A stretch of 64,000 bases of DNA from Leptotrichia massiliensis (GTDB lineage: Bacteria; Fusobacteriota; Fusobacteriia; Fusobacteriales; Leptotrichiaceae): contig NZ_FNVZ01000005.1 in assembly GCF_900104625.1 (NCBI RefSeq), positions 1,240,001 through 1,304,000 of the forward strand. The letters run 5' to 3'. The translations under genes and the position numbers were made by a program. Positions within the stretch are counted from its first letter, which is position 1. Every line of letters starts with the position of its first letter. The notes below the pieces were generated by a model, which did no database searches, was not told the origin of the DNA, and saw only the letters and a list, made by a program, of their open reading frames with translations. Positions 19,685 through 19,964 of the stretch are shown one piece after another.

Positions 19685-19772
19685 ATAAAAAAAAGCCCTT
19701 TTTACAGGCTCTAAATAAAATTATACAAATTGTATATAAAAACAAAGAGCCAACAACCCAAAAGTCATTGGC
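19685..19772 (-). promoter_or_regulatory. Attenuator-like RNA of the arginine operon (antiterminator/terminator)
   Basis: On the minus-strand RNA three alternatives compete. A 9-bp hairpin pairs 19764-19772 (GCCAAUGAC) with 19749-19757 (GUUGUUGGC). The antiterminator pairs 19746-19751 (GGCUCU) with 19707-19712 (AGAGCC). The terminator pairs 19706-19710 (AGCCU) with 19694-19698 (GGGCU), followed by about eight U. Part of the first hairpin (19755-19767, UGAC and GGGUU) can instead pair with the end of the leader-peptide coding region (19830-19840, AACCC and GUCA). This is the classical logic of ribosome-mediated attenuation. The pairings are seen directly; the mechanism is inferred. Confidence 0.75.
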
Positions 19773-19817
19773 AAAAGTAAAATTTTTATGTAAAACAGGA
19801 ATTCATTATAAAAATGA

Positions 19818-19892
19818 TTATACACCATCTGACAAGGGTTTATAATTTAATTGTGTAAATTTATTATCCCTTATCCTTCTTATCATTTTCAT
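19818..19892 (-). CDS. Predicted arginine leader peptide (24 codons)
   Basis: Minus-strand ORF beginning ATG at 19890-19892, with AGGAGG eight bases upstream, and ending TAA at 19818-19820. The product starts M-K-M-I-R-R-I-R-D-N-K; codons 5, 6 and 8 are AGA, AGG and AGG. Three Arg codons in four, two of them AGG (which looks uncommon in this AT-rich DNA), lie ahead of the arginine biosynthesis operon, which points to a sensor of charged tRNA-Arg. Its last third overlaps the RNA segment (19830-19840) that can pair with the downstream attenuator. It is too short for ordinary ORF searches. Confidence 0.75.
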   Translation of the reverse strand: MKMIRRIRDNKFTQLNYKPLSDGV

Positions 19893-19935
19893 AATCTTTT
19901 CCTCCTATCATTTTAATTTATTTTTTGATAAATCT

Positions 19936-19964
19936 ATTATAGCAGAAAAATAATCTAAAATCAA
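19936..19964 (-). promoter_or_regulatory. Predicted promoter of the arginine operon
   Basis: TTGATT (-35, 19959-19964) and TATAAT (-10, 19936-19941) on the minus strand are 17 bases apart. Transcription would begin near 19929, some 37 bases before the leader-peptide ATG and 270 bases before argC. Confidence 0.75.

Follow-up and report, generated by a model that had tools for sequence, protein, structure and literature searches.

Arginine synthesis is a textbook case of ArgR control, and ribosome-mediated attenuators are familiar from the trp, his, leu, phe, thr and ilv operons of enterobacteria. This report concerns the region ahead of argC in a 64,000-nucleotide stretch of the Leptotrichia massiliensis genome (Fusobacteriota; contig NZ_FNVZ01000005.1, positions 1,240,001 to 1,304,000; hereafter the window), where a short leader open reading frame (ORF) with clustered Arg codons precedes two terminators and the operon argC-argJ-argB-argD-x-argF, x being a 182-aa ORF. 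Sequence comparison and folding models point to an arginine-specific, ribosome-mediated transcription attenuator acting via these Arg codons, a reading to which we assign a probability of about 0.88; the leader very probably lets the ribosome sense an arginine shortage and switch argCJBD-x-argF on.

Like the enterobacterial attenuators, the argC leader has a leader ORF led by a Shine-Dalgarno (SD) sequence, clustered codons of the regulated amino acid and the biosynthetic operon downstream; its leader end pairs with the next segment, a terminator is the alternative, and termination is expected without translation. Unlike them, it uses arginine, two serial terminators and the less-used codon AGG, and it belongs to the Fusobacteriota, some genera of which have two serial leaders before argC (L069-L071). 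Its mechanism would be that of the trp/his class, in which the tandem terminators and the serial units are variations.

Arg codons also serve as sensors in two described leaders. In the Salmonella orf34-speF leader, ribosomes sense arginine by pausing at the Arg codons AGG CGG of a short ORF upstream, a property shared with the argC leader; however, its target is ornithine decarboxylase, its control involves Rho, access to the ribosome-binding site (RBS) and RNase G rather than intrinsic terminators, and its peptide is the conserved DUF2618 (PMC6386406). None of five leaders tested here matched DUF2618 or any other Pfam or NCBIfam family at E values up to 10, with the sensitivity that such short queries allow. 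In Staphylococcus aureus rbfL, AGA/AGG codons of a short leader, read by tRNA-Arg(UCU), likewise sense arginine limitation, but rbf translation is repressed by covering the RBS and there is no terminator (PMC13009471). The uORFC-8-2 cysS attenuator resembles the argC leader in that leader-codon attenuation specific to one amino acid was predicted comparatively, and differs in its cysteine codons, its occurrence in Rhodobacterales and its target, a tRNA synthetase gene (PMC8632094). A literature search found no leader-peptide attenuator described for arginine biosynthesis, although its coverage of subscription journals was thin and such an absence is not proof.

The initial annotation of the stretch between 19964 and 19685 had described a TTGATT/TATAAT promoter with a 17-nt spacer, a 24-codon ORF with a strong ribosome site and codons AGA-AGG-AUA-AGG at positions 5-8, and a set of exclusive RNA folds; this description was recovered nearly base for base, all on the minus strand (Table 1). 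Elements resembling TTGATT/TATAAT occur at the equivalent site in the Leptotrichia relatives and in genus g9. Arg5, Arg6 and Arg8 are encoded by AGA, AGG and AGG, that is, three Arg within four codons, and the downstream genes argCJBD-F serve the biosynthesis of the amino acid that these codons specify. Eight SD-led short ORFs lie outside long ORFs in the window, and only the argC leader has two AGG in six codons; the pattern SD-AUG-AGGNNNAGG occurs at eight places in the window's own genome (G000), where by inspection the argC leader alone is leader-like. The SD is retained in all representative leaders, which are predicted to be translated. AGG accounts for 80 of 115 Arg codons over 31 representative leaders, some of which were picked by an AGG criterion, as compared with 14% in the window ORFs and 0-35% by genus; in the argC leaders alone, first spotted by reading upstream of argC, a manual count gave 36 of 60. 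Among the 42 tRNA genes of G000, the Arg anticodons are UCU, UCG and ACG; tRNA-Arg(CCU) is absent, so that AGG must be decoded by tRNA-Arg(UCU). In one Leptotrichia leader (L009, genome G001), a natural nonsense change from CAA to UAA at codon 14 leaves 13 codons (MKMIRRIRDNKFT), which end away from the leader end.

Among 98 Fusobacteriota genomes, argC (called by TIGR01850) is present in 31, and 28 of these carry an SD-led, AGG-rich Arg leader ORF, 26 directly before argC and two (G078 and G079) at the head of an operon ending in argHGC. The remaining three (G033, G034 and G081) have no Arg leader near argC. Locus L031 is from Leptotrichia sp. oral taxon 879, and L032 and L033 are from Leptotrichiaceae metagenome-assembled genomes. 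No Leptotrichiaceae argC leader departs from AGG AUA AGG, and the preceding residue is variable (R, K, V or T). The leader peptides of Fusobacteriaceae are wholly different (MMFRISRTRRQ, MLIRSSRMRK, MMLLRHFRI), and clustered AGG codons persist in them. The leader-end nucleotides CCYUUGUC are conserved while the encoded peptide drifts between genera (PLS, SILC, YPC); because the sequence is kept while the reading frame changes, this segment appears to be selected as RNA, not as peptide. In g26 and g27, argC is preceded by two consecutive leader-terminator units (L069, L070 and L071). A phylum-wide search with the 14-mer AGAAGGATAAGGGA, allowing one mismatch, was abandoned, since most of its matches were noise, comparable to what the reversed-pattern control gave.

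The RNA between the leader and argC can be divided into region 0 (the Arg codons), region 1 (the leader end), regions 2 and 3 (hairpin T1) and region 4 (AGAGCC of T2). The leader end pairs with 19767-19755 as claimed: AACCC (19840-19836) lies opposite GGGUU (19759-19755), and GUCA (19833-19830) opposite UGAC (19767-19764). A third helix, UGGU (19827-19824) with GCCA (19772-19769), was added here, for a total of -13.3 kcal/mol. The pairing of 19746-19751 with 19707-19712 was also recovered, GGCUCU (19751-19746) being the exact complement of AGAGCC (19712-19707). The T2 stem, put at 4-5 bp by the initial annotation, has instead 6-7 bp including G-U pairs (-7.3 kcal/mol). T1 is itself terminator-like in the window and is followed by a clean U tail in many relatives, and tandem U-tailed intrinsic terminators lie between leader and argC in 26 of 26 sequences. 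The leader region folds with z = -3.4 (0 of 200 shuffles as good), and four terminator-like sites were observed as against 0.1 expected. The Arg codons are complementary to the leader end (AUAAGGG:CCCUUGU); because these two segments pair, T1 is also predicted to form without translation.

Complementarity between the leader end and the 5' half of T1 was found in all 26 argC leaders, with negative z values in 26 of 26 against dinucleotide shuffles; taken one by one, about half of these pairings are significant (p < 0.05). Covariation was assessed in ten aligned Leptotrichia-type sequences of one family. All 100 of the T1 cells are paired and two-sided changes occur among them; for region 1 with T1 the figure is 102 of 130 cells (78%), compared with 23-52% when slid. 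The three two-sided changes in 1:2 (C-G to U-A twice, G-C to A-U) are three-way, because the T1 positions share both helices, as alternative pairing predicts. The antiterminator formed with the leader end, exclusive with T1, is conserved by covariation in this small set, which bears out, together with the retained Arg codons, the conservation that the initial annotation had proposed to look for in Leptotrichia and other Fusobacteriota. Pairing 3:4 is strong in L016, L010 and L009.

The attenuator reading has the support of conservation, complementarity and covariation, and also of folds in which all RNA upstream of the ribosome's leading edge was masked and the probability of T1, P(T1), was computed for each A-site codon. 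In the window, P(T1) is 0.98 without a ribosome. It falls to 0.52-0.57 when Arg codons 5-8 occupy the A site, reaches its minimum of 0.22 at codon 13 and is back at 0.97-0.98 between codon 15 and the stop. The same profile was obtained for L019, L008, L014, L015, L013, L004, L007 and L068, and a weaker one for L017. Removal of the T1 5' half lowers P(T2) in the window to 0.06, because GGCUCU:AGAGCC forms.

From these parts and their exclusivity in silico we infer stalling, termination and a response to arginine along the following lines. The ribosome would translate the 24-codon leader behind RNA polymerase. When charged tRNA-Arg(UCU) is scarce, it would stall at AGA-AGG-AUA-AGG and leave region 1 exposed; free region 1 would pair with the 5' half of T1 and prevent this hairpin, and the released 3' arm, GGCUCU, would pair with AGAGCC, disarming T2 and letting the polymerase continue into argCJBD-x-argF. 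When arginine is ample, the ribosome would reach UAA and cover region 1, so that T1 would form, AGAGCC would be left unpaired, T2 would form and transcription would end. Without translation, the Arg codons would pair with region 1 and termination would again be the outcome. Most simply, the decisive switch would be 1:2 against T1 (2:3), T1 being the first terminator in most relatives. The second step of the cascade in the initial annotation, in which T1 blocks 3:4 and T2 then forms, is well supported in Leptotrichia-type sequences; elsewhere its support is mixed or non-significant.

Several results weigh against this mechanism. In about half of the 26 sequences, including the near-identical relative L018, equilibrium P(T1) is at least about 0.95 at every ribosome position; because T1 wins at equilibrium there, switching would need kinetic control, in which 1:2 forms before the 3' arm of T1 is made. 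When the window RNA is folded from just past the stop to the end of T2, equilibrium P(T1) is 0.51 and P(T2) 0.18, so that with the ribosome at the stop T2 would depend on T1 forming first. In L009, P(T1) is still 0.24 at the premature stop, and this leader is therefore predicted to be partly derepressed and its control weak. Pairing 3:4 is non-significant in most non-Leptotrichia sequences and reaches p of about 0.1 by shuffles in the window, and one gap in the covariation alignment was placed by hand.

Arg leaders are not confined to argC. They also precede amino-acid ABC (ATP-binding cassette) transporter-argHG operons, a substrate-binding protein gene with argG, and lone transporter operons, in the Fusobacteriaceae genera g14-g18, g20-g23, g26 and g27. 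The transporter names all rest on scores below curated cut-offs, including that of the one binding protein tested, which scored best with lysine/arginine/ornithine ABC binding proteins. No leader with three Arg in eight codons stands directly before argG, except one in L101; leaders rarely abut argG because it is usually an internal gene, and a search at the operon head located them. Leptotrichia argG lies behind an unrelated gene and has no leader. As a control, 278 kb of unrelated loci were scanned without an arginine criterion, which gave 33 SD-led short ORFs, four of them with an AGG pair. Three of the four repeat a single 17-aa frame next to a tRNA-Asn gene and are probably rRNA; the fourth is leader L145, which precedes an M20 amidohydrolase gene and then an ORF resembling an amino-acid-binding protein.

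The Fusobacteriaceae have a conserved hairpin, UGNAAAGAUY-stem-RUGAGYAUA, placed after the Arg leader and ahead of the first terminator (loci L005, L007, L069-L071, L107, L108, L110, L115, L196-L204 and L212-L214). Its covariance model (R1) succeeded where a loose DNA pattern had returned noise, with 30 matches in 19 of the 98 genomes. The genes that follow are argC or encode an ABC transporter, an NhaC-type antiporter-like protein or an amino-acid permease. In 14 of 15 loci inspected an Arg leader stands directly upstream of R1, the exception being L213 (permease), and seven loci scanned gave no relevant Rfam match to the hairpin. R1 might act as an additional sensor, or else bind a factor or cause pausing. 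At L106 (G081, about 5880-6000), a divergent R1-like hairpin and tandem terminators precede argHGC, with no recognisable Arg leader.

Other explanations of the argC leader differ in what would sense arginine. An arrest peptide, comparable with the fungal arginine attenuator peptide or TnaC/SpeFL, would respond to free arginine rather than tRNA charging; one particular nascent peptide would stall the ribosome, and the site of the stall would set the fold. The leader is indeed short and Arg-rich, with an RIR(E/D) core conserved within Leptotrichiaceae, but its C-terminal half is constant neither in length nor in sequence nor in where it stops, and the frame of region 1 drifts as described above. 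Across genera only the AGG codons persist, in varied contexts (LRNRKY, RHERH, RISRTRR), and the preference for AGG over AGA points to tRNA supply, which makes an arrest peptide quite improbable. The strong folds and the R1 hairpin between leader and T1, found at L213 even without a leader, would suit a switch in which the RNA itself binds arginine or a protein (a riboswitch or RNA-binding antiterminator), the ORF being incidental. R1 is, however, unmatched in Leptotrichiaceae, the window's genome included, Rfam gave nothing above threshold at the leader, and no part of the window leader is as conserved as the SD-led run of Arg codons; we regard such a switch as very improbable. A T-box leader (stem I plus T-box) was also considered and rejected, with no Rfam match at the gathering threshold and none relevant at E values up to 5.

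Since ArgR is the usual arginine control in other bacteria, the promoter might be its target and the terminator unregulated. But the ArgR C-terminal domain (PF02863) is absent from 97 of the 98 Fusobacteriota genomes, including G000, in a search that was positive in 8 of 14 control genomes, so ArgR control is unlikely here and is not an option for almost the entire phylum. It would also leave the leader and the 1:2 covariation unexplained, and we take its likelihood to be close to nil. The sole Fusobacteriota genome with ArgR domain matches, G097, has two (L074 and L075), both assigned to a 326-aa open frame of a single contig.

Attenuation by ribosome stalling at Arg codons may reach beyond argC. 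We somewhat favor the view that the Fusobacteriota, nearly all without ArgR, have a phylum-wide arginine regulon of biosynthesis, uptake and argHG that is governed by AGG-codon leaders and tandem terminators, joined in Fusobacteriaceae by the undescribed R1 hairpin. A phylum with almost no ArgR appears to rely on tRNA charging across synthesis and uptake operons, which suggests how bacteria such as Leptotrichia sense arginine. The argC leader would be a ready-made reporter of arginine starvation, and the nonsense change in L009 is a natural variant bearing on the mechanism.

Table 1. Features of the argC leader and operon, in window coordinates
Feature	Coordinates	Strand	Remarks
Promoter TTGATT-17 nt-TATAAT	19936-19964	-	-35 TTGATT 19964-19959; -10 TATAAT 19941-19936; TG ahead of -10
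SD AGGAGG of leader ORF	19901-19906	-	8 nt ahead of AUG
Leader ORF MKMIRRIRDNKFTQLNYKPLSDGV, 24 codons + UAA	19818-19892	-	SD-led
Arg codons AGA AGG AUA AGG (codons 5-8), proposed stall site and region 0	19869-19880	-	
Region 1 (leader end), strand of antiterminator 1:2	19824-19840	-	Partner of T1 5' half and loop, through ACCC, GUCA and UGGU
T1, a 10-bp hairpin (regions 2 and 3) with a moderately U-rich tail	19749-19772	-	-11.0 kcal/mol; putative first terminator and/or anti-antiterminator
Region 3 GGCUCU, pairs with AGAGCC of T2 (3:4)	19746-19751	-	
T2 intrinsic terminator and U tail	19687-19712	-	Hairpin 19712-19692; U run to 19687
argC, first structural gene	18610-19659	-	TIGR01850, E 1.6e-130
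argJ, argB, argD, 182-aa ORF, argF (rest of operon)	13550-18597	-	

Two further observations concern the window. The 182-aa ORF between argD and argF (14556-15104, minus strand) has no NCBIfam match. At 54194-54458, on the minus strand, lies a bacterial large signal recognition particle RNA (RF01854).
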